From positions 1-24,191 of the forward strand of contig JAFGLG010000013.1 in assembly GCA_016928155.1 (NCBI GenBank): DNA of 24,191 nucleotides. The letters are read 5' to 3'. Source of the DNA: Candidatus Woesearchaeota archaeon. Lineage in GTDB: Archaea; Nanobdellota; Nanobdellia; Woesearchaeales; JAFGLG01. Positions within the stretch are counted from its first letter, which is position 1. Each line of letters starts with the position of its first letter. Shown here one piece after another: positions 2 through 19,585 of this stretch. Both the position numbers and the translations under genes were made by a program. The notes under the pieces are model-generated. The model saw only the letters and a program-made list of their open reading frames with translations, was not told the DNA's origin and did not search any database.

Positions 2-3000
2 GGCACAGAAACCTGCAACGCAGGAGAATGGCAAGGATGCCCACTGCCACAAGAAGAGGCCTGCAACAACCAAGACGACAACTGCGACGGAATAATAGAC
101 AATATCACCCAATCAACAAACGAACAAGGACTATGCTTCATAAACACAGAAACATGCATAGAAGGGACCTGGACACCAAACAATGAATACACACCACAGG
201 AAGAAACCTGCAACAATCTAGATGATGATTGTGACGGTACAACTGACAATATGACACAGGATTGCTCAGTTCAGCATCTTGGTGTATGCGCACTAGGAAC
301 AGAATTATGCACAGAAGGCACATGGGACGGATGCCCGCTGCCACAGACAGAGATATGCGATCTCGAATCACAAGACGAAGATTGCGACGGACAGATAAAT
401 GAAGAGAACTCGACAGACTGCACAACTTATTATCACGACGAAGACAGCGACACATGGGGCCTCGAACTGGACAACAGATGCCTATGCGCACCACTAGACC
501 CATATGATTCAACACAATTCGAGGATTGCAATGACACAAACCCAGATGTCAACCTAGACGCGACAGAAGCATGCAACGGAATAGACGACGACTGCGATGG
601 CAATATAGACGAAGAGAACGCGACAGGCTGTAGCATATACTATTATGATGAGGACAGCGACACATGGGGATTACAAGAAGACAACAGATGCCTATGCGGA
701 CCAGAAGCCGAATATTCTTCAACACAATACCAGGACTGCGACGACACAAACCCAGGCATTAATCCTGGAATGCCCGAGATATATTACAATTTCCTTGATG
801 ATGACTGCAATGCAAGCACAATTGACTGGGATAAGGATAGCGATGGCTATCCTGCACCTCCGTTTGGCACTGACTGCAATGATAATGACCCAAACATAAA
901 TCCAGGGATGCCAGAGATACCTGGCAATGGTATCGATGATGACTGCAATGCAAGCACAGGGGATTATGATGTAGATGGGGATGGTTATGAAGGATGTTAT
1001 CCTTATTACTGCGGGGATGACTGCGATGATAACAATGCCTCAATAAATCCAGGTGCAGCAGAGATATGTGATAATGTGGATAATGATTGCGATGGTGTGA
1101 TAGATAACATTACTCAGTCAACAAACGAGCTGGGAGAATGCATAATCAACACCGAGACCTGCATAGCAGGCAATTGGACACCTAACAATGAATATAGTAT
1201 CACAGACGAAATCTGCAACAACCTTGATGATGATTGTGATGGCACAATTGATATGATAACACAGGATTGCTCAGTCCAGCATCTCGGTATATGCGCACTA
1301 GGAACCGAATTATGCACAGAAGGCTCCTGGGACGGATGCCCAATACCAGAAGAAGAATTATGCAACGATGATGGATTGGACGAAGACTGCGATGGCAATA
1401 TTAATGAACCAGAAATCTGCAGTTGCCTTAATGGCCAAACACAGCCCTGCCCATTCCAGTATGGTGTATGCGTAGGAGCATTCGAGACATGCACAGAAGG
1501 CCAATGGCCAGGATGCACAGCAGACAATTATGGACCAGACTATGAAGCAGGAACAGAACTCACCTGCGACGGACTGGATAATGACTGCGATGTAGCAATT
1601 GACGAGAACATCACAAACCAGACAGGCTCAACAGATGTCGGAGAATGCTCATTCGGCCTTGATGTCTGCATAGCAGGCAACTGGACAGTCAACATAACAC
1701 CAATCTATCCAGAAAATGAAATCTGCGATGGTCTCGATAATGACTGCAATAACCTAACTGATGATGATCTTGTTCCAGAACTATGCCTATTGCAGGATGG
1801 AGTTTGCGCTGGGTCTACAAAGGTCTGCGGCGGAGAGCTAGGATGGCTCGATTGCACAGCAGACAATTATGGACCAGACTACGAAGCAGGAACAGAAACC
1901 TCCTGCGATAGTCTAGATAATGACTGTGATGGAACAGTAGACATGATGATACAAGAATGCTCATTGAACTATCAAGGAATCTGTGCAGAGGGGAATGAAA
2001 CCTGCACATTAGGGCTATGGTTCGGCTGCCCAGCACCTCAAACTGAGATCTGCGACGGAACCCTGGATGAGGACTGCGACGGCACAATAGATGAACCTAA
2101 CGCAACAAACTGCTTGGAATACTATTATGACGGAGACAGTGACACATGGGGCCTCGGACTGGACAACAGATGCCTATGCGCACCAGAAGACCCATATGAT
2201 TCAACACAGTTCGAAGACTGCGATGATGCAAACCCAGAAGTCAACCCAGACGCGACAGAAACATGTAACGGAATAGACGACGACTGCGATACCCTTGTTG
2301 ATGAAGAAAACGCAACAGGCTGCTTAGTATATTATTATGACGGAGACAACGACACATGGGGACTGGAACTAGATAATAAATGCCTATGCACACCACAAGA
2401 CCAATACACATCAAACCAGACACAGGACTGTGATGATACTGACGCATCAATAAATCCAGAAGCAACAGAGATATGCGATGGGGTGGATAATGATTGTGAC
2501 TTCATGACAGACAATATAACACAACCATGTTCATTGCAGGACGGAGTATGCACAGGAGCATTCGAAACATGCACAGATGGAAGCTGGCCAGGATGCACAG
2601 ACGCAGATTATGGCCTGGATTATGAACCAGGTACGGAGGTCTCATGCGACAACCTGGACAATGACTGCGACAGCCAAACAGACGAAGACCTTTATCAGGA
2701 TGTTGCCTGCGGCCAAGATGAATGTAATGGCTTAGTCACACAGCAGTGCCTTGATAGTGATTATCAGGATATTGGCAATTGTTCCTCATACAGCAATCCA
2801 TGCAGGGTTGATGATAATTATTCAATTTATGGCTGCTATGCAGGTACTGATTTTGATGATGATACCTATAAGGAGGATCATTATTTCCTATGCAATGAGA
2901 TAGGGATATGCACAGATTATGCTCATGATTGGCAACTTGATGAGGAGTGCAACACAACACAGTATTGCTGGTATTCAGTGGATGATGGCTCTGACAATTA

Positions 3001-3745
3001 TTATTGCCAGGATAACAAATGCCCTGATTTCACCTCTGTTCCATTGACACAGGCTATTGTGTATACCCCTTATGATTATACTGCAGTCGCTGATGATCCT
3101 GAGGACAGTGTCTTGACTTATTCACTGGATCTCATCCCTGTAGGGACAAGCATGATGAGCATAGACCCAGCCACAGGAGTGATTGATTGGACCCCTTCAC
3201 CAGATCAGATTAACAGCTATAATCTGGCTGCCGATAACAGTGTCACTGTCAGGGTCGATGATGGCATGTGCTCAGTGACCCAGGAGTTTGAAATCACTGT
3301 TCATGGTATCTGCTCTGAGGATGATGGGGGCATAAAATATTTCACAAAAGGCAGGGTCAATGGTACTGGATGTTATGCAGGTGATTGCATGGATTATGAT
3401 ACCTCAGATTGGTGCAATGGTCCTGATGTCCTTATCGAATTCTATTGCAGCAATGGTGATTTAAAATCTACCGAGAAGAATTGCATCAATGGCTGTGAAG
3501 ATGGTGCTTGTAATATTGAGCCATATTGTGATGATACAGATGGTGGCTCGGATTATTTTGAATTTGGAATAGTATCTTATGATGGTATTGATTATGAGGA
3601 TGTCTGCAATGGCTCCACACTGACAGAATATTATTGCTCAAATGATATGATGAATTATGACTTTTATGTCTGTGAGAATGGCTGTTCTGATGGAGCTTGC
3701 CAACTCATGAAAGCACAAGACCTACAAAAGAACAGGATTAGGTGA
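2..3745 (+). CDS. Large exported MopE-type Asp/Cys repeat protein, 5' end missing
   Basis: The reading frame is open from base 2, so the gene begins left of the window; 1,247 residues are visible. I count 16 motifs of the form N/D-x-x-D-x-D-C-D/N (for example GIDDDCDG, NVDNDCDG), the signature of the putative metal-binding MopE family. They alternate with Cys modules of the pattern C-x-x-G-x-W-x-x-C. Around 3022-3306 a non-repetitive stretch (SIDPATGVIDWTPS) resembles a cadherin/Ig-like domain, and the tail has two small Cys modules ending GCEDGAC and GCSDGAC. There is no C-terminal membrane helix. The many Cys residues and N-x-T/S sequons (NIT, NAT) fit an extracellular, disulfide-bonded, perhaps glycosylated protein; the signal peptide would lie outside the window. 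Calcium or other metal binding is inferred from the family and not shown. The 3' neighbour starts 5 bp after the stop, so they are probably cotranscribed. Confidence 0.85.
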   Translation, partial: GTETCNAGEWQGCPLPQEEACNNQDDNCDGIIDNITQSTNEQGLCFINTETCIEGTWTPNNEYTPQEETCNNLDDDCDGTTDNMTQDCSVQHLGVCALGTELCTEGTWDGCPLPQTEICDLESQDEDCDGQINEENSTDCTTYYHDEDSDTWGLELDNRCLCAPLDPYDSTQFEDCNDTNPDVNLDATEACNGIDDDCDGNIDEENATGCSIYYYDEDSDTWGLQEDNRCLCGPEAEYSSTQYQDCDDTNPGINPGMPEIYYNFLDDDCNASTIDWDKDSDGYPAPPFGTDCNDNDPNINPGMPEIPGNGIDDDCNASTGDYDVDGDGYEGCYPYYCGDDCDDNNASINPGAAEICDNVDNDCDGVIDNITQSTNELGECIINTETCIAGNWTPNNEYSITDEICNNLDDDCDGTIDMITQDCSVQHLGICALGTELCTEGSWDGCPIPEEELCNDDGLDEDCDGNINEPEICSCLNGQTQPCPFQYGVCVGAFETCTEGQWPGCTADNYGPDYEAGTELTCDGLDNDCDVAIDENITNQTGSTDVGECSFGLDVCIAGNWTVNITPIYPENEICDGLDNDCNNLTDDDLVPELCLLQDGVCAGSTKVCGGELGWLDCTADNYGPDYEAGTETSCDSLDNDCDGTVDMMIQECSLNYQGICAEGNETCTLGLWFGCPAPQTEICDGTLDEDCDGTIDEPNATNCLEYYYDGDSDTWGLGLDNRCLCAPEDPYDSTQFEDCDDANPEVNPDATETCNGIDDDCDTLVDEENATGCLVYYYDGDNDTWGLELDNKCLCTPQDQYTSNQTQDCDDTDASINPEATEICDGVDNDCDFMTDNITQPCSLQDGVCTGAFETCTDGSWPGCTDADYGLDYEPGTEVSCDNLDNDCDSQTDEDLYQDVACGQDECNGLVTQQCLDSDYQDIGNCSSYSNPCRVDDNYSIYGCYAGTDFDDDTYKEDHYFLCNEIGICTDYAHDWQLDEECNTTQYCWYSVDDGSDNYYCQDNKCPDFTSVPLTQAIVYTPYDYTAVADDPEDSVLTYSLDLIPVGTSMMSIDPATGVIDWTPSPDQINSYNLAADNSVTVRVDDGMCSVTQEFEITVHGICSEDDGGIKYFTKGRVNGTGCYAGDCMDYDTSDWCNGPDVLIEFYCSNGDLKSTEKNCINGCEDGACNIEPYCDDTDGGSDYFEFGIVSYDGIDYEDVCNGSTLTEYYCSNDMMNYDFYVCENGCSDGACQLMKAQDLQKNRIR
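60..350 (+). repeat. Long intragenic repeat, second copy at 1065-1355
   Basis: About 290 bp recur 1,005 bp (335 codons) downstream inside the MopE-type gene. The shared order is a DDDCDG motif, ITQSTNE, a Cys module with TPNNEY, another NNLDDDCDGT motif, then QDCSVQHLG and CALGTELCTEG. The last 90 bases (260-349 against 1265-1354) are nearly identical at DNA level, while the left part is more diverged, mainly at third codon positions. This points to segmental duplication or gene conversion. Confidence 0.85.
408..700 (+). repeat. Long intragenic repeat, second copy at 2100-2392
   Basis: About 290 bp recur 1,692 bp (564 codons) downstream in the same gene. The unit encodes DSDTWGLELDNRCLCAP, a Tyr-Asp-Ser-Thr-Gln stretch, CNGIDDDCD and then a second DTWGL-type module, so the unit itself is an internal duplication (around 449 and 657). 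DNA identity is high over the first half of the unit. Confidence 0.85.
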
Positions 3746-8417: not shown

Positions 8418-8433
8418 GGAATAAAAACATTTA

Positions 8434-8447
8434 TATATTTAAATATA
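8434..8447. promoter_or_regulatory. 14-bp palindrome, possible operator
   Basis: TATATTTAAATATA is a perfect palindrome 78 bp upstream of the regulator start. A related half-copy, the palindrome TAAATATTTA, is at 8504-8513, between the regulator's TATA box and its ATG, where bound repressor would block transcription. Binding by the regulator is only inferred; such sequences also resemble TATA boxes. Confidence 0.3.
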
Positions 8448-8492
8448 CAAATATAAATATTGTCTTTTCCTATACAAGACCGGAAACATAAG

Positions 8493-8500
8493 ATTTATAT
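8493..8500 (+). promoter_or_regulatory. TATA-like box for the regulator gene
   Basis: ATTTATAT lies about 28 bp upstream of ATG 8525, fitting a leaderless or near-leaderless transcript that covers the regulator and the downstream 927-residue protein. Confidence 0.5.
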
Positions 8501-8524
8501 ATCTAAATATTTAAATTGACAAAT

Positions 8525-8773
8525 ATGAACACTGCTTTTTTCAGGGCATTGGCAGATGATACCAGGTTGCAGATAGTCGGATTCCTGATGTCAGGCCCGA
8601 AGAATGCCATGCAGATAACTTCTCATGTCAATAAATCCCAGCCTAATGTCTCATTGGCTCTCAAGGAACTGCACAATGCAGGGATAATCCTCTCTGAACC
8701 AAAGGGAAGGTTCAGGATCTTCAGCCTGAAAGACAAGCAGAAGATAAGAAAGATATTGGAGCTGGCCAGATGA
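8525..8773 (+). CDS. ArsR-type winged-helix regulator
   Basis: 82 residues from ATG 8525; a TTG three codons upstream is less likely given the promoter spacing. It has the compact ArsR-like winged-helix form: MNTAFFRALADDTRLQIVGF (helices 1-2), a helix-turn-helix at about residues 28-50 (MQITSHVNKSQPNVSLALKE) and a short wing (SEPKGRFRIFSL). No Cys residues occur, so the classic metal-sensing CxC box is absent and the signal is unknown; such proteins also act as plain DNA-binding switches. Its TGA overlaps the ATG of the 927-residue gene (ATGA, 8770-8773), which implies cotranscription and translational coupling. Autoregulation through the AT palindromes at 8434-8447 and 8504-8513 is plausible but unproven. 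Confidence 0.8.
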   Translation: MNTAFFRALADDTRLQIVGFLMSGPKNAMQITSHVNKSQPNVSLALKELHNAGIILSEPKGRFRIFSLKDKQKIRKILELAR

Positions 8774-11553
8774 GGAAATACAATCTTCTCTGGATGCTTG
8801 GACTCATGGCCTTGCCTGATGTAAGGGCGCAGGCCCTGAGGAATGCACTTGACGTCGTGCATCAGCAGGTCGGATTCCTCTTCATGGACCTCGATCTCGG
8901 TGACAGGGCTTACATGTTCTACATCAAGTTCTGCCTCTGGATCCTCATCTTCGCGATAATGTTCTATGCAGGAGGCTATGCTCTCAAGGATTCAGGGAGA
9001 GGGCAGAAGAACCGTGGCATAAGGGTCACTCTTGCCATTGTTATTGCTCTTATCAGTGTGATTGCGATCCCCGATTCATTGGTCAGCACTATTGTCGACG
9101 CATATGCCATAACTGCCCTCGCCCTCATACTCGGCATCCCGCTATTCGGCATATGCTATGTCGTCTTCGTATTATTGCCCAATACATGCGCTTATTTCGG
9201 CCTCAAGGCTGCTTTGATGTATATCCTGGCATGGCTTCTCGACAGGATTGCGAACAATGCGCTTGGGACTGTTTATCTGATACCTGAAAATTTCTTGTCC
9301 TGGGTCCAGGTTGCCATGTCTGCATGTATCATTATCATGATCTATTACATCATCAGGGCCATAGCATGCCTTTTTAGCCGCCGACCTGCAGAAGAGGGTG
9401 GCCCGAGGACAATCTGGGATGATATGCATGACCTTGATTACCCAGCCAGGAACAGGCAGCCTGCACAGCCCAATCAGGGTAATCAGCCGGCTCCTGCTCC
9501 AACAGGACCAGGAGGAACAGGTCCTGCACCAGGTGGAACTGGTGGAGGCGGTGCAGGAGGCCCAGGAGGAGCTGGAGGCGGAGGTGGTCCTGGTGGAGGT
9601 GGCGGAGCAGGAGGCCCAGGAGGAGGCGGAGGAGCAGGAGGCCCAGGAGGAGGCGGAGGAGCAGGAGGCCCAGGAGGAGGCGGAGGAGCAGGAGGAGCTG
9701 GAGGCGGCGCAGGTCCGATCAATGTCAATGCAACAGCAAACTCTAATGCTGTTGCTCAGGCTGCGGCGATTTCACAGGCAATGTCTCAGGCTGTCAGTCA
9801 GGCTCTGGCACAGGCTGCTGCAATGTCAAGTTCACAGGCCCAGGCAATCTCACAATCTGTTGCCCAGGCAGTTGCGCAGGCAGTGTCTCAATCAAGCGCT
9901 CAGGCGCAGGCAGCTGCAGCTGCTCAGGCGCAGGCCTTGGCTCAGGCAGTGTCTCAGTCTATCAGCAGTGCTGTTGCTCAGGCAGCAGCCCAGTCAAATG
10001 CAACTGCTCAGGCATTGGCGCAGGCCATTGCTAACTCATCTGCTGAGGCTCGAGCTCATTCAGAAGCCATTGCTCAGGCCATATCTCAGGCAATGGCACA
10101 ATCAAATGCTACTGCGCAGGCTTTGGCAGAAGCCATTGCACAGGCATTGGCAAGGAACAATGTAGACATCAATATTGAAGCGATCATCCAGGCAACAGCC
10201 CAGGCTTCTGCAAGAGCAGAAGCAAGTGCTCGGGCCACTGCAAGGGCCATTGCAAGGGCTGTTGCTAAGGCAATGGCTGAGGTTCACGTCAGGGTTGATG
10301 TCGAGGCCATAGCTGCTGCTGTTGCAAAGGCTGTTGGTGGAGGCCGTGGCGACATAAATATCAGCATCGATAATGCAGCCTATGCAGCTGCTGAATCCAT
10401 CGCTGTCGCTTTAGGAGGCGAAACAGGAGGAGGTCAGAAGACACCTGGTGCAAGGCTGGCTCATGTGGCACACATTCATGTTGAGCCGATAAAGAAATAC
10501 ACTGGTGAGGTCAGCACTGATTATCGTGGTTGGAGATATGCGATAATCCCTATTGGTTTTAGCAGAAATAAGAAAATTAAGAACACTGTTGAATTCAATA
10601 TCCAGACCCAACCAAAGGCTGCAACAGGTTGGCATTATCGATACAGGCTGTTCTTCATGTATTTTGATGGCCTGAGATTCAGGAGATTCACTCCAGAGCA
10701 GACTGAAAAATGGTATATTAAGCTGCACGGTGATCAGGTTGATGAGCATCTTGTCAATGATGTAAGAGTTGCTGTGTTCACTAGAGGTGTATTAAATCAT
10801 ATAAAGAGAGTATTTGCATCAAAAAGCAAGAAATCTCTTGTTATAGAATACAGGCCAAATAGGTTTGCTGATCTGAAAGGTAAAGTGATGGTTATGCTTT
10901 CAGCTGAGATTTTAGGGTCACTGAAAGATGGCTCGCCGAGGATTGACATGAGTTCAGGCTATTACATCCTGGATTTCAACACTGCAGACAGGAAGGCGCA
11001 TCTCGAACAGCAGCTGAGCTTCCTTCAGCGTCTATTGAATGATAATATCAGGCAGATGCGGAAGAGATTTGACATGAAGATTGACAGGATAAAGAGACTA
11101 TTGAATGACATAAATCCTGCAGATGGGTTGTTGATCGCAACACCTCGAGAGCAGATTAACAGGAATAGTCTTCAGAATGTGAGTGATATCCTGCACAGGA
11201 TGAAGAGAGATATTGACGGTCTGACAGAGATGTATACAAAATTCGCCGTCCATTATCTGGATCCTGCTGAAAGGACCAAGCTCAAGGATGAGGTTGATCA
11301 GATAAAGCAGCTTTACATCAGGCTCATGAATGAGGTATATCCGATAGCAGAGCTGACGAGGAGGCCAGAAGCAAGTCTCAATGATGCAGAAAGGGCTCTG
11401 CTGACGCCTGAGAGATGCAGAGCATTAAAAGAGCGTTCTGAAGGATTTATTCATGAGCTTGAAGAGTTTGTAGACAAGTATTTCAGACTCCTGAGGGCAG
11501 GTATAATCAGGAAGATAAAAGAAGTTGGCGAAGAGATAGATAAACTCACTTAA
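8770..11553 (+). CDS. 927-aa membrane protein with Gly-rich linker, Ala/Ser/Gln repeat, beta domain and coiled coil
   Basis: The domains in order are as follows. Residues 1-20 are hydrophobic, ending DVRAQA, like a signal peptide. About five membrane helices lie between 48 and 200. The Lys/Arg-rich loop at 73-84 and SRRPAEEGG after the last helix put both on the inside, so the large remainder is predicted cytoplasmic. Residues 225-316 are a Pro/Gln then Gly-rich linker (period AGGPGGGGG). Residues 320-555 are an Ala/Ser/Gln-rich repeat with four-residue periodicity (AQAISQSVAQAVAQAVSQ), broken by short beta-like motifs (DINIEAI, VRVDVEAI, DINISIDN). Residues 566-737 look beta-rich (YAIIPIGFSRNKKIKNTVEF). 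Residues 738-927 are Lys/Glu/Arg-rich helices, probably coiled coil. I know no family with this architecture. The repeat recalls silk or other low-complexity assembly proteins only in composition. Its stop overlaps the dUTPase stop on the other strand. Confidence 0.8.
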   Translation: MRKYNLLWMLGLMALPDVRAQALRNALDVVHQQVGFLFMDLDLGDRAYMFYIKFCLWILIFAIMFYAGGYALKDSGRGQKNRGIRVTLAIVIALISVIAIPDSLVSTIVDAYAITALALILGIPLFGICYVVFVLLPNTCAYFGLKAALMYILAWLLDRIANNALGTVYLIPENFLSWVQVAMSACIIIMIYYIIRAIACLFSRRPAEEGGPRTIWDDMHDLDYPARNRQPAQPNQGNQPAPAPTGPGGTGPAPGGTGGGGAGGPGGAGGGGGPGGGGGAGGPGGGGGAGGPGGGGGAGGPGGGGGAGGAGGGAGPINVNATANSNAVAQAAAISQAMSQAVSQALAQAAAMSSSQAQAISQSVAQAVAQAVSQSSAQAQAAAAAQAQALAQAVSQSISSAVAQAAAQSNATAQALAQAIANSSAEARAHSEAIAQAISQAMAQSNATAQALAEAIAQALARNNVDINIEAIIQATAQASARAEASARATARAIARAVAKAMAEVHVRVDVEAIAAAVAKAVGGGRGDINISIDNAAYAAAESIAVALGGETGGGQKTPGARLAHVAHIHVEPIKKYTGEVSTDYRGWRYAIIPIGFSRNKKIKNTVEFNIQTQPKAATGWHYRYRLFFMYFDGLRFRRFTPEQTEKWYIKLHGDQVDEHLVNDVRVAVFTRGVLNHIKRVFASKSKKSLVIEYRPNRFADLKGKVMVMLSAEILGSLKDGSPRIDMSSGYYILDFNTADRKAHLEQQLSFLQRLLNDNIRQMRKRFDMKIDRIKRLLNDINPADGLLIATPREQINRNSLQNVSDILHRMKRDIDGLTEMYTKFAVHYLDPAERTKLKDEVDQIKQLYIRLMNEVYPIAELTRRPEASLNDAERALLTPERCRALKERSEGFIHELEEFVDKYFRLLRAGIIRKIKEVGEEIDKLT
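9553..9714 (+). repeat. 27-bp minisatellite coding for the Gly-rich linker
   Basis: The unit GCAGGAGGCCCAGGAGGAGG plus CGGAGGA occurs as three perfect 27-bp copies at 9607-9633, 9634-9660 and 9661-9687, with degenerate copies on both sides. The unit is a multiple of three, so changes in copy number keep the frame and alter linker length by nine residues (AGGPGGGGG). Confidence 0.9.
9727..10160 (+). repeat. Ala/Ser/Gln coding repeat
   Basis: A 12-bp-periodic coding repeat (codons for A-Q-A-x or S-Q-A-x). It includes a larger duplication: the SNATAQALAQAIA segment near 9994 recurs as SNATAQALAEAIA near 10102, about 108 bp apart. Synonymous codons differ between units, so the repeat is older than the Gly minisatellite and is kept at protein level. 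Confidence 0.8.
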
Positions 11554-11972
11554 TATCCCGTGCTCCCGAAACCGCCTTCTCCGCGTGAGGTCTCGTCGAG
11601 ATCTTCTGTTTCTTCGATGTCGCACTGCACGACTGGCTGCACAAGCATCTGCGCAATCCTCATGCCTTTCTCTATCTTGAATTCTTCCTTGCCGAGATTG
11701 ATGAGAACAACTTTGACCTCGCCGCGATATCCCGAATCGATGACTCCGGCAAGCGTATGCAGGGAATGCTTTGCTGCGAGCCCGCTCCTGTCCCATATCA
11801 GTCCGACATGGTTGTTGGGTATCGCAATTTTTATCGCAGTGGGGATTATCTTCTTCTCTCCCCATTTCATAATCACTTCCTCAGAGGAGTACAAGTCCAC
11901 TGCAGCATCGTAACTGTGTGCATAACTGGGCAATGGTAAGCTCTTGTCCAATCTATTAATCCTTAATTTCAT
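11550..11972 (-). CDS. dut: dUTPase (dUTP diphosphatase)
   Basis: 140 residues, the normal length of the trimeric dUTPase family, which hydrolyses dUTP to dUMP and pyrophosphate, keeping uracil out of DNA and feeding dTMP synthesis. All five motifs are present: motif 1 DAAVDLYS (residues 22-29, Asp26), motif 2 DRSGLAAK (61-68), motif 3 GVIDSGYRGEV (76-86, with Asp79 and Tyr82), motif 4 GMRIAQMLV (103-111) and motif 5 RGEGGFGSTG (130-139). Motif 1 has Ala where Gly is usual and motif 2 starts with Asp; neither removes a key catalytic residue. A TATA-like box 25-34 bp upstream fits a leaderless start at ATG 11972. The stop codon overlaps the stop of the 927-residue gene inside TTAA. Confidence 0.93.
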   Translation of the reverse strand: MKLRINRLDKSLPLPSYAHSYDAAVDLYSSEEVIMKWGEKKIIPTAIKIAIPNNHVGLIWDRSGLAAKHSLHTLAGVIDSGYRGEVKVVLINLGKEEFKIEKGMRIAQMLVQPVVQCDIEETEDLDETSRGEGGFGSTGY

Positions 11973-15997: not shown

Positions 15998-16353
15998 TGA
16001 AATCAAAGATGATGATCTTCACAAGCCCTACTTGTCCTAACTGCCCTCCTGCCAAGAAGGTTGCGCAGGAACTGAGGAAGGAGCGGGATGATTTTGACCT
16101 GATTGAATTATCTACAATGTCACCTGAAGGCATTGCTGAAGCCGGCAGGCTTGGGATCAGGTCAGTCCCCACTTTCATAATCAGCGGTCCTGGCTTCCCT
16201 GAACTCATAGGCTTGCAGGGCCAGCAGGACAAGAAGGTCCTTAACAAGTATCTTGACAAGAGCCTTGGTATAGAAGCGAAGATACAAAAAGGAGAGATTG
16301 AGAAAAAAGGATCAGGGAAAGATAAAGGTTTTCTTAGCAGGTTCAGGTTCTAG
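15994..16353 (+). CDS. Thioredoxin/glutaredoxin-like protein with CPNC motif
   Basis: 119 residues. ATG 15994 overlaps the rtcA stop; ATG 15997 is an alternative that sits better behind the AGGTGAT site (15987-15993). The fold is recognisable: strand MMIFTSPTCPNCPPAKK with the redox pair Cys14 and Cys17, helix KVAQELRK, strand DFDLIEL and the cis-proline loop SVPTFII (Pro59). The last 30 residues are a Lys/Gly-rich tail ending KGFLSRFRF, outside the normal domain. It should act as a cytoplasmic disulfide reductase or thiol carrier; the partner is unknown. The tail resembles the N-terminus of the coiled-coil protein encoded nearby (KGFLGIFRK). The stop overlaps the convergent gene in CTAG. Confidence 0.85.
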   Translation: MMKSKMMIFTSPTCPNCPPAKKVAQELRKERDDFDLIELSTMSPEGIAEAGRLGIRSVPTFIISGPGFPELIGLQGQQDKKVLNKYLDKSLGIEAKIQKGEIEKKGSGKDKGFLSRFRF

Positions 16354-17708
16354 ATTATGTCCAGCAGCTCTATGTCATCCTTCAATGATATGAGCTGGTA
16401 ATAGAGATCCCTTTTTGTGTAGTCATCTGCGCTCAGGCTCTCGTATAGGTCCGAGGCTTTCCAGTATATCTTCTTGGCTTCTTCCAGGTTCTTTTCCTGG
16501 ACGAGCTTCCTCGCTTTCTGGACCAGGTTGACTATCTCGTAATGGCTTTTCTGCTTCTCTTCAAGCTCGGGGGTCATGAGCTCTGCATTGAGCATCTTGC
16601 TGCTGTCCCCGTGTATGTATGACTGGAATGACTCCTGCTCGTATCTCTCTTTTCTTGTCACAAGGTCTTTCTCGTGCTCGTGGAGCTTCCTCTCCCTTTC
16701 ATCTACCCACTGCTCCCTGCCTTCAAGCCCCTTCTCCCTTGATAAGACCTCTTCATAGTCGAGTATCCTTGCCTCATCCTGGTAGAATTTATGGGCCATC
16801 CTCTTCTCGCGGGATTTCATGTCATTCAGGAGATTCTGCACTCTTATGATCTCCTTGTCCAGGTCTTTTATCTCGACGAGCTTTGCCTTCTTCTGTGCGA
16901 GAACCTCGACTTCCCCGCTGAGAAGCCCTTTTGTGTCTGTGAGCTCTGTGATGATCCTCTTCAGGTCATTCACCTTAACCAAGTGTGCTTTCTTGTCGGA
17001 TAATGTCTCTACTTCTTTCTTGAGGGCAGGTATCTGCACCTGATATTTCTTGACGCTCTCCTTGAGCTCCTGCACTTTCATTATCTTGAGCCTTTTCTGC
17101 TCCAGGTCGGTCTTCAGGGTCTCGATCTGATTCTCCTGCTCATTCACATATGTGGAGAATTGTGTCTTCTCGGTTTCCAGCCTGCGGAGCTTGTACTCCA
17201 CCTGGCTCTGCATCTGCTCCATCTTCTTCCTGGAATCTTCGAGTGTCCTTATCTTCTCTGTGATGCTCTTCTCCTCTTTCTTCAGTTTCTGTATGCTGGA
17301 TTCCAGCTGGGAGTTGAAGTCCTGGAGCTCTTTCCTTGCGCTCTCTATCTCAGTTGCCACTTCTTTCTTATGCGATCTGTAGTATTTTATGGTGTCTTCG
17401 AGCTCTCTTTCCTGGACTGTCAGCTTGGCTACGCTGTCTGCCAGCTTCTCCTCTTCATACCTGAGGTCCTGCACCACCTTAGCGTATGCCGCCTGGTCTC
17501 CTGGATCAGGCATATCAATCTTGTCGGATTTCCTGGGCTGCGGCTCCCTGAATTCGGGGATAGCTGCCTTTTCAGATGGCTCCTCGAGGATTATGCTCTC
17601 CTGGAATGCAGGCGGGCTCGGGGGACTCATGTCCATGTTAGGAGCCTGTGAGGATTTGTTGAGGCTGTCCAGATTCGGGCTCATTGCCGGTTTCATTGCT
17701 GGTTCCAT
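16350..17708 (-). CDS. Coiled-coil protein with helical C-terminal domain
   Basis: 452 residues, second gene of a two-gene operon. The upstream stop is 3 bp before its ATG, and an AGGAGG site lies inside the end of the upstream gene. Residues 1-75 are Pro/Ser/Met-rich and disordered (MEPAMKPAMSPNLDSLNKSS). Residues about 75-370 form a long coiled coil rich in Glu, Lys and Leu (KLTVQERELEDTIKYYRSHK). The last 65 residues are a helical-hairpin unit (VQKARKLVQEKNLEEAKKIY) resembling TPR or MIT-like repeats. There is no signal peptide or membrane helix, so it is cytoplasmic. A structural, scaffold or chromosome/cytoskeleton-linked role is possible; no ATPase head domain exists, so it is not an SMC protein. 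Confidence 0.75.
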   Translation of the reverse strand: MEPAMKPAMSPNLDSLNKSSQAPNMDMSPPSPPAFQESIILEEPSEKAAIPEFREPQPRKSDKIDMPDPGDQAAYAKVVQDLRYEEEKLADSVAKLTVQERELEDTIKYYRSHKKEVATEIESARKELQDFNSQLESSIQKLKKEEKSITEKIRTLEDSRKKMEQMQSQVEYKLRRLETEKTQFSTYVNEQENQIETLKTDLEQKRLKIMKVQELKESVKKYQVQIPALKKEVETLSDKKAHLVKVNDLKRIITELTDTKGLLSGEVEVLAQKKAKLVEIKDLDKEIIRVQNLLNDMKSREKRMAHKFYQDEARILDYEEVLSREKGLEGREQWVDERERKLHEHEKDLVTRKERYEQESFQSYIHGDSSKMLNAELMTPELEEKQKSHYEIVNLVQKARKLVQEKNLEEAKKIYWKASDLYESLSADDYTKRDLYYQLISLKDDIELLDII

Positions 17709-17711
17709 TTT

Positions 17712-19553
17712 TCAGGCCTCCTGGAGCTTCTGGTACTTTAGCCAGAGCTCATCCGCTTTCTTCTGCTTCTCTGAAGGCGTCATGTTGGGATATCTCTCTG
17801 ATATCTTCACCATTGCCTTCTTCATGAATGTGTCTTTCATTTTGTCGTCTGGCTGCCCTTTTTGGAACACCCTCGTGAACAGACCTCTCTTCTCTTCTTT
17901 CTTTCCTGTCTGCGAGATTGCCGGAGCCTGTAATGGCACGGCTGTCGGCTTCTGTATCTGGGGTTGGGCTGGTCCTGCCCCTGGAGGCATCTCCATGACA
18001 AGCCCTGAACCTGTGGGCACTGTCAGGCTCGGTGCTGTTAGCTCCGGTGCCGCAGGTCTGATTTCAGGCACGATGATTTTCGGCGCTGATGTCACTTGCG
18101 CAGGGCCCGGTGTCTGCGCTTCTCCTCCGAAGACCTGCCTGGCCATTTGCTGCACCTCTTCATAGCTAGGCAGCTCCTTTGATCCTGCCTCATGTGATTT
18201 CTCGAATTCGATATTAGGTCTCGGGACCTCCTCCTGTGCTGCAGGGGCCGCAGATCTTCTCTCAGTGATCATGGCTTTCTTCGGAGCCATCTCCGCATCC
18301 CCTCCCAGCTCGTGTATCCTCCTCACGAGGTTTGACAGGATCTTTTCATTGACCATGACCTCTTTCTTCTTCTTGATGAGGCCCTTGGTGAGCTTCTGCA
18401 GCTCATTCTTCCTCTCTTCGTGTGTCTTTTGGAGTGCATCTATCCTTGCTCTGTAGTCCTGCGAGTTCCTCACTTTCTCATTGTATTTCTTGGCCTTGTT
18501 TATCTCGACCATCAGGACTTTTATCTTGGCCTCCAGCTTCTTGTTGAGCTTCTCTTTCTGCTCTTCAACCCATTCCCTCTGGGCGTCATTGTCCATCTTC
18601 TCTTTCTGGAACTGGGCTATCTTCCTTGTGAGGATCTTCTCCTCCTCTTTCATGACCTTCTGCTCCTCTTCCATCTTCTGGACTGCCTGCACCACTTCTT
18701 CCTCTCTCTCCCTGAGCAGTTTCTCATCATTCTCAAGTGTCTCAATCCTTGAAAGGATCTCCCTCTCCTTGTTGAATAGCATCTGCTTCTCTGTCGCAAG
18801 GCCCTGCCTGTGCTCCTCAAGCTCCTTCCTTATCATGTCCAGGCTGTTTGTCTCCATCTCTACCTGATGCTTCAGGTCCAGTATCTGGTTCTGCAGTGCC
18901 TCTTTCTCCTTGTTCATACCCTCGATGTCTTTTGTTATCGTAATCTGGAGGTAGTTCATCTCAGTTATCTTCTTCTCAGATTCTTTGACCCTGTTCTCCC
19001 TCTCGATGATCTCATCTTTCATCTTCAGCAGCTTCTCCTGGATGCCATCGAGGCCGGTTTTCCTCTTGGCTATCTGCTCCCATTCCTTCTGGAGGTTCTT
19101 TGTGTCTGCGTCGAATCTCTTCTGCTGGTCCTTCATGTTCGAGACTGCCTTCGCGAGCTCGGCAGATGTCATCTTTATGTCAGTATCGAGGGCTTTCTTC
19201 TTCTCATCAAGTTTGCTTATCTCCTTCTCGAGCTTTGCCCTTTTTGTGCTCAGGTCAAGGATGCTCTTTGAGGAGTCTTTTGTCGCCTTGGTGAGGTTCG
19301 CCTCGCGCTCATCGAGCTCTGCTTTCTTTGCCTCGAGGTCCTGGAATTTCTTTGCCAGCGTATCCTCAAGCGCCAGGAGCTTCTTCTTCTTGTCGCTTAT
19401 TGCGATCGCGAGATCCTTCAGGAGCTTCTCTTTTTTTGACAGGACTTCCTGTCTGCTGTCGATCTGGGAGCTTTCTGATTTCCTGAAGATTCCTAGAAAT
19501 CCTTTTGATTCTGTTTCAGTCTCTGGTAAGGAAGGCTCTTCCAATTTTGCCAT
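17712..19553 (-). CDS. Long coiled-coil protein, first gene of the operon
   Basis: 613 residues from the ATG at 19553; a TTG one codon upstream is possible, but the GGGGTGA site fits the ATG. The N-terminus has a short motif KGFLGIFRKSE, then an almost continuous coiled coil to about residue 420. A Pro/Ala-rich disordered linker follows (about 435-545, for example PGPAQVTSAPKIIVPEIRPA). The C-terminus is a basic helical region with a second motif of the same kind (KRGLFTRVFQKG) and ERYPNMTPSEKQKKADELWL. No Walker motifs, signal peptide or membrane helix are present. With its partner (16350-17708) it probably builds a filament or scaffold in the cytoplasm; the partner's disordered N-terminus and this linker may be interaction arms. 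I recognise no named family. Confidence 0.75.
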   Translation of the reverse strand: MAKLEEPSLPETETESKGFLGIFRKSESSQIDSRQEVLSKKEKLLKDLAIAISDKKKKLLALEDTLAKKFQDLEAKKAELDEREANLTKATKDSSKSILDLSTKRAKLEKEISKLDEKKKALDTDIKMTSAELAKAVSNMKDQQKRFDADTKNLQKEWEQIAKRKTGLDGIQEKLLKMKDEIIERENRVKESEKKITEMNYLQITITKDIEGMNKEKEALQNQILDLKHQVEMETNSLDMIRKELEEHRQGLATEKQMLFNKEREILSRIETLENDEKLLREREEEVVQAVQKMEEEQKVMKEEEKILTRKIAQFQKEKMDNDAQREWVEEQKEKLNKKLEAKIKVLMVEINKAKKYNEKVRNSQDYRARIDALQKTHEERKNELQKLTKGLIKKKKEVMVNEKILSNLVRRIHELGGDAEMAPKKAMITERRSAAPAAQEEVPRPNIEFEKSHEAGSKELPSYEEVQQMARQVFGGEAQTPGPAQVTSAPKIIVPEIRPAAPELTAPSLTVPTGSGLVMEMPPGAGPAQPQIQKPTAVPLQAPAISQTGKKEEKRGLFTRVFQKGQPDDKMKDTFMKKAMVKISERYPNMTPSEKQKKADELWLKYQKLQEA

Positions 19554-19585
19554 CAATTTTCACCCCAACCCCTTTTGAATATGAA

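Follow-up and report, generated by a model that had tools for sequence, protein, structure and literature searches.

The two-gene cassette at positions 8525-11553 of the window (the whole stretch of DNA analysed, 24,191 nucleotides long) is best explained, with a probability of roughly 0.55, as an autorepressed unit that would produce a membrane-tethered cytoplasmic payload and would be regulated in the manner of SdpR/SdpI of Bacillus subtilis. The window is an entire contig (C13) of a 1.48-Mb genome that is 99.7% complete, and its gene content is archaeal. The named records in which its relatives carry the same genes are Woesearchaeota and Nanoarchaeota MAGs; of two scans of genome contigs for relatives, one returned none and the other three loci, all already among those found, and a scan of viral contigs returned none. 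All genomes compared are MAGs, in which frameshifts and broken contigs (e.g., G197 and G049) may split or hide genes.

The cassette lies on the plus strand and consists of a Cys-less winged-helix regulator of 82 aa (8525..8773; a TTG at 8516 is an alternative start) and a 927-aa protein (8770..11553), the regulator's stop and the start of the larger gene sharing an ATGA overlap (8770..8773); these reading frames and coordinates are as the earlier note gave them. Two 24-bp palindromic operator-like sites precede the regulator on the same strand: a distal copy at 8429..8452, in which 11 of 12 pairs are complementary, and a proximal copy at 8493..8516, which includes the TATA-like element TTTATATAT and lies 64 bp from the distal one. 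At its other end, the 927-aa gene has a 4-base stop overlap (11550-11553) with a convergent dUTPase-like gene on the minus strand (11550-11972), named from its sequence. The 927-aa protein is predicted to begin with a signal peptide (residues 1-20; 8770..8829) and a five-TM domain (residues 21-205; 8830..9384), to continue with a Gly/Pro linker (residues 211-318; 9400..9723) and a silk-like, Ala-alternating (A-X) repeat (residues 319-540; 9724..10389), and to end with an Ig-like beta-sandwich domain (residues 569-736; 10474..10977) and a helical domain (residues 741-927; 10990..11550). The earlier note's order of membrane bundle, Gly-rich linker, repeat and beta domain stands, with the refinement that the bundle comprises a cleavable-type signal peptide and five TM helices; the coiled coil that it placed at the end does not, this part being predicted as a compact four-helix bundle.

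The regulator is of the ArsR/SmtB type, scoring above the cut-offs of Pfam HTH_5 (40.2 bits vs. 22) and NCBIfam HTH_metalloreg (NF033788; 64.1 vs. 55). Unlike ArsR/SmtB metalloregulators, it lacks the CxC metal ligands in its helix: it has zero Cys, and none is present in the matching stretch of 15 payload-type ArsRs, whereas nearly all other ArsRs compared carry the classical CxC metal site. The payload ArsRs group on the tree (3 changes vs. a shuffled mean of 10.2), yet do not form one supported clade. The pair of regulator and membrane protein recurs in related genomes with the same kind of overlap, a same-type ArsR gene overlapping a gene of the five-TM family by 4 bases in the window, 14 in G013, 8 in G134, 4 in G180, 8 in G214 and 8 in G197; in G029 and G031 and ahead of the second G180 gene, the gene that overlaps the family gene is a different wHTH gene. 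The proteins encoded downstream of nine further Cys-less ArsRs are membrane-anchored without matching the five-TM profile, and include a beta-helix protein of 1520 aa (G372) and a 1516-aa protein (G148), which indicates that the putative repressor-operator unit is joined to varied anchors and not just to varied payloads. The gene overlap, like the palindrome described below, is found again at loci of this kind. A TctA-like gene of ~10 TM helices, recognised by eye, often neighbours the cassette or points away from it (L023, L067, L072, L094, L159, L160, L167 and L169), as if it were a conserved insertion site.

The nearest studied case is SdpR/SdpI of B. subtilis, in which an ArsR-type autorepressor is sequestered by a co-encoded polytopic membrane protein upon ligand binding (PMC1626106). 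Here, as there, a small ArsR-type gene shares an operon with the gene directly after it, which encodes a polytopic membrane protein. Unlike SdpR, the window regulator reaches 45 bits against a curated cut-off of 100; unlike SdpI, the window membrane domain lacks the SdpI domain (no Pfam or NCBIfam family above cut-off). The window protein further differs in combining a signal peptide and five TM helices with a large cytoplasmic payload and in being archaeal, and no toxin gene was recognised beside the cassette. For the archaeal cassette, sequestration would be proposed by analogy.

The tails that follow the membrane domain in the family are mostly coiled coil; others are Ig-like, papain-like protease or glycosyltransferase. 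Papain-like peptidase tails occur in G106 and G146 and in a broken gene of G197, the tails in G214 are glycosyltransferases (GT2 and GT4), and G134 has a GT2-like domain; the Pfam names on these payloads are Peptidase_C1, Glycos_transf_2 and Glycos_transf_1, and the counts leave out a JAMM-like (G148) and a papain-like (G049) payload that were recognised by eye and have no Pfam match. The interchange of protease and glycosyltransferase domains suggests that the payload acts as an effector, or in processing, on the inner side of the membrane. For the 927-aa protein no Pfam family was found, but its beta domain recurs in a relative (G134; 30% identity, E 6e-12) and perhaps also in G197 (alignment by eye). 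When modelled with the G134 relative, it takes the form of an Ig-like sandwich, and the four-helix bundle that comes after it is well predicted; the Ig-like fold resembles adhesin and integrin domains, and the likeness of the bundle is that of a common arrangement and carries no functional implication. The window payload is suggested to be a non-catalytic binding or scaffolding form; since its repeat has no counterpart, a function for it cannot be transferred from the relatives.

Since both flanks of the low-complexity stretch (the N-domain and the beta domain) have homologues, the repeat lies in frame within a single gene. A Gly/Pro/Ser/Ala-rich linker follows the membrane domain in 24 of the 83 family members, and in the window it is encoded by a 27-bp tandem array of about six copies, 85% matching. 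In residues 319-540, Ala alternates with Gln, Ser, Val, Ile and others at a period of 2 (spectral power 89.8; identity 0.29-0.41 at even lags vs. 0.04-0.11 at odd lags), and its alternation measure is 0.354, the runner-up among the 733 proteins of all loci in the family survey reaching 0.095. This repeat is a lineage-specific insert and, unlike the Gly linker, has no long tandem array in its DNA, which suggests that it is probably old and maintained at the protein level. Two-residue alternation is a property of silk beta-strands, and Ala/Gln-rich sequence can also be helix. Like silk fibroin-like repeats, the window repeat has small residues in strict two-residue alternation over a long stretch, but it pairs Ala with Gln/Ser/Val/Ile instead of Gly with Ala, and is predicted to be cytoplasmic. 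The idea that the repeat is a helical coiled coil found little support, the signal lying at period 2 and the hydrophobic value at period 3.4-4.2 being equalled by 32 of 1000 shuffles.

Part of this architecture would suit pure dose control, in which a simple ArsR autorepressor holds a toxic or aggregation-prone membrane protein at a low level and the protein is a structural scaffold engaged in neither signalling nor sequestration. Simple negative feedback agrees with the coupling by overlap and with the duplication of the operator-like sites, and the long repeat and Gly linker appear structural; however, catalytic domains stand at the same place in relatives, so that what the cassettes have in common is not a purely structural role, and this explanation is considered unlikely, though it is the most serious of the competing ones.

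The control region of the cassette extends what the earlier note described. Its proposal that the protein is regulated by the coupled regulator gains support from a 24-bp near-palindrome (consensus ATTTATATATTTAAATATATAAAT) just upstream of six of six overlapping ArsR genes, at -24 to -43 in five of them; the site is perfect in G134 and present in two or three copies at four of the six loci. Since the consensus was drawn from these same six loci, loci outside it were tested, and a site with at most four mismatches was found at 7 of 9 further Cys-less ArsR genes that have a membrane-anchored protein directly downstream vs. 1 of 15 other ArsR genes; one of the seven, that of G049, is perfect. 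In a set of 675 upstream regions, it is the six original loci that have the fewest mismatches (two via the divergent neighbour gene), each value being reached by 0-2 of 1000 shuffles. Across the 1.48-Mb genome of the window, fewer than three mismatches were found at the two window sites alone, and the two matches with three mismatches are no more than a reversed-pattern control gives. The gene overlap, the palindromes at the cassette's own promoter and the lack of other sites together point to local autorepression, which the operator-like palindromes support indirectly. It is improbable that these AT-rich palindromes are mere duplicated core promoters (TATA boxes), with the target of the ArsR protein elsewhere or absent and the overlap a matter of compact-genome packing. 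The sites do contain TTTATATA and are positioned where a core promoter is expected, and because of the TATA-like element the promoter alone could account for part of the palindrome's conservation; against this, the full 24 bp are palindromic and conserved, to perfection in G134 and G049, nowhere else in the genome falls below three mismatches, and the site tracks the Cys-less ArsR genes and not the others.

The membrane domain that would anchor the payload represents, as judged from its sequence, a widespread and undescribed family in this archaeal order, whereas the earlier note knew of no family with the plan of the 927-aa protein. It has no family above cut-off in Pfam, NCBIfam or PHROGs, and its sequence profile gave chance matches alone against the PDB; a description of the family or cassette was not found in the open literature searched, the coverage of which excludes preprints and many subscription papers. 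Homologues occur in 83 of 240 genomes of the same order and in 55 of 147 genomes sampled across the DPANN phylum, and the counts vary with the profiles used, which were built from 14 and 6 sequences. Many family loci consist of two family genes in tandem followed by coiled-coil genes, and a PAC2-type gene, named by sequence without a database match, lies near family genes in 17 of 65 loci. The window genome itself holds a 50%-identical paralogue of residues 1-210 in such a tandem pair (C2:76248-78410); control of this pair by the HTH protein was considered and dropped, no operator being present there within three mismatches. In G013, locus L023 (5350-8558) contains two family genes whose membrane domains are nearly identical and whose tails differ, which suggests that the platform was recently duplicated or underwent gene conversion. 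Five other loci (L060-L064; G009, G052, G081, G189 and G206) have three tandem five-TM genes of ~175-220 aa beside small soluble helical genes; these match the family weakly, have no Pfam family above cut-off, and were kept separate from it.

The alignment of 91 family sequences shows a V-x-A signal peptide, K/R at residue 53 (98%), F61, P101, Y112, P124 and five hydrophobic segments. The window domain, whose signal peptide ends in V-R-A, has the V-x-A motif, K/R at 53, P101, five TM helices and positive loops 1 and 3. In the family, loops 1 and 3 carry net charges of +2.1 and +1.7, and the N-tail, loop 2 and loop 4 are net negative. By the positive-inside rule, 90 of 91 homologues have an inside C-terminus as judged from K/R balance, charge being the sole basis of this topology, so that the domain is predicted N-out/C-in and the C-terminal part of the 927-aa protein cytoplasmic, in agreement with the earlier note. 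A tail outside the cell, as a surface adhesin or S-layer-like component with a silk-like stalk and an Ig-like head, might be proposed from the resemblance of the fold to adhesin and integrin domains and from a cassette relative (G372) with an extracellular-type beta-helix protein after one N-terminal helix. Besides the loop charges, composition speaks against it: the beta and helical domains of the window protein are rich in K/R and resemble cytosolic sequence (P(secreted) 0.02; the classifier finds just 67% of secreted proteins). A further point against it is the glycosyltransferase payloads of relatives, as glycosyltransferases depend on cytosolic sugar donors; such an outside tail is held to be quite improbable.

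An AlphaFold model of the domain built from seven sequences shows the same five helices at low confidence (pLDDT 65, pTM 0.40), and the likeness to TolQ and VirB6 folds is not trusted, the matches being weak and the model too poor for fold assignment. VirB6 likewise has an N-out, five-TM, C-in plan, and one of the weak structural matches is to a TrwI/VirB6 chain (Z 3.4); that the family forms the VirB6/TrbL-like core of a machine for secretion or DNA transfer, with payloads as cytoplasmic accessories, is nevertheless highly improbable, as there is no sequence match to VirB6/TrbL, the fold match is not significant (nothing significant in Foldseek, best E 2.8) and a secretion ATPase does not regularly adjoin family genes.

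In the preferred explanation, that of an autorepressed cassette with a cytoplasmic payload, the Cys-less repressor would bind the two palindromes overlapping its own promoter and thereby curb the output of both the regulator and the overlapping membrane-protein gene. The signal peptide and five-TM platform would insert the 927-aa protein into the membrane, where a flexible Gly/Pro and Ala-X tether would present the Ig-like domain and four-helix bundle to the cytoplasm. The probable partner of the platform is the same-family tandem pair elsewhere in the genome, a partnership proposed from paralogy alone. In relatives, papain-like proteases or glycosyltransferases would take the place of these domains in the same cassette. 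The analogy with SdpR/SdpI suggests that the membrane protein may sense a signal from outside, keep the repressor at the membrane and so raise its own expression.

More tentatively, and with a low probability, the cassette may belong to a modular system of membrane sensors and effectors in Woesearchaeales-type archaea, in which one group of Cys-less ArsR proteins and a conserved palindromic operator serve interchangeable anchors and payloads (proteases, glycosyltransferases, Ig-like domains and silk-like tethers) and the membrane protein senses and derepresses, possibly in virus conflict or host-cell contact. Should the cassette indeed be a sensing system, the swapping of payloads behind a single regulator would make it an archaeal counterpart of SdpR/SdpI with built-in effectors. 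The family itself, which has no entry in the searched libraries, acquires a predicted topology and, in part, a link to a defined repressor and operator-like site, so that a regulated genetic unit can be offered in organisms about whose cell biology hardly anything is known. The earlier note had proposed neither the operator-like sites nor the exchange of the tethered part for enzymes.

Elsewhere in the window, positions 2-3745 encode an open-ended, secreted-type protein of >1200 residues with 12 stretches of MopE Cu-binding/putative metal-binding motifs and a putative Ig domain. At 16350-19556, two neighbouring minus-strand genes, 3 bases apart, encode long coiled-coil proteins of 452 and 614 aa that have no TM helices.
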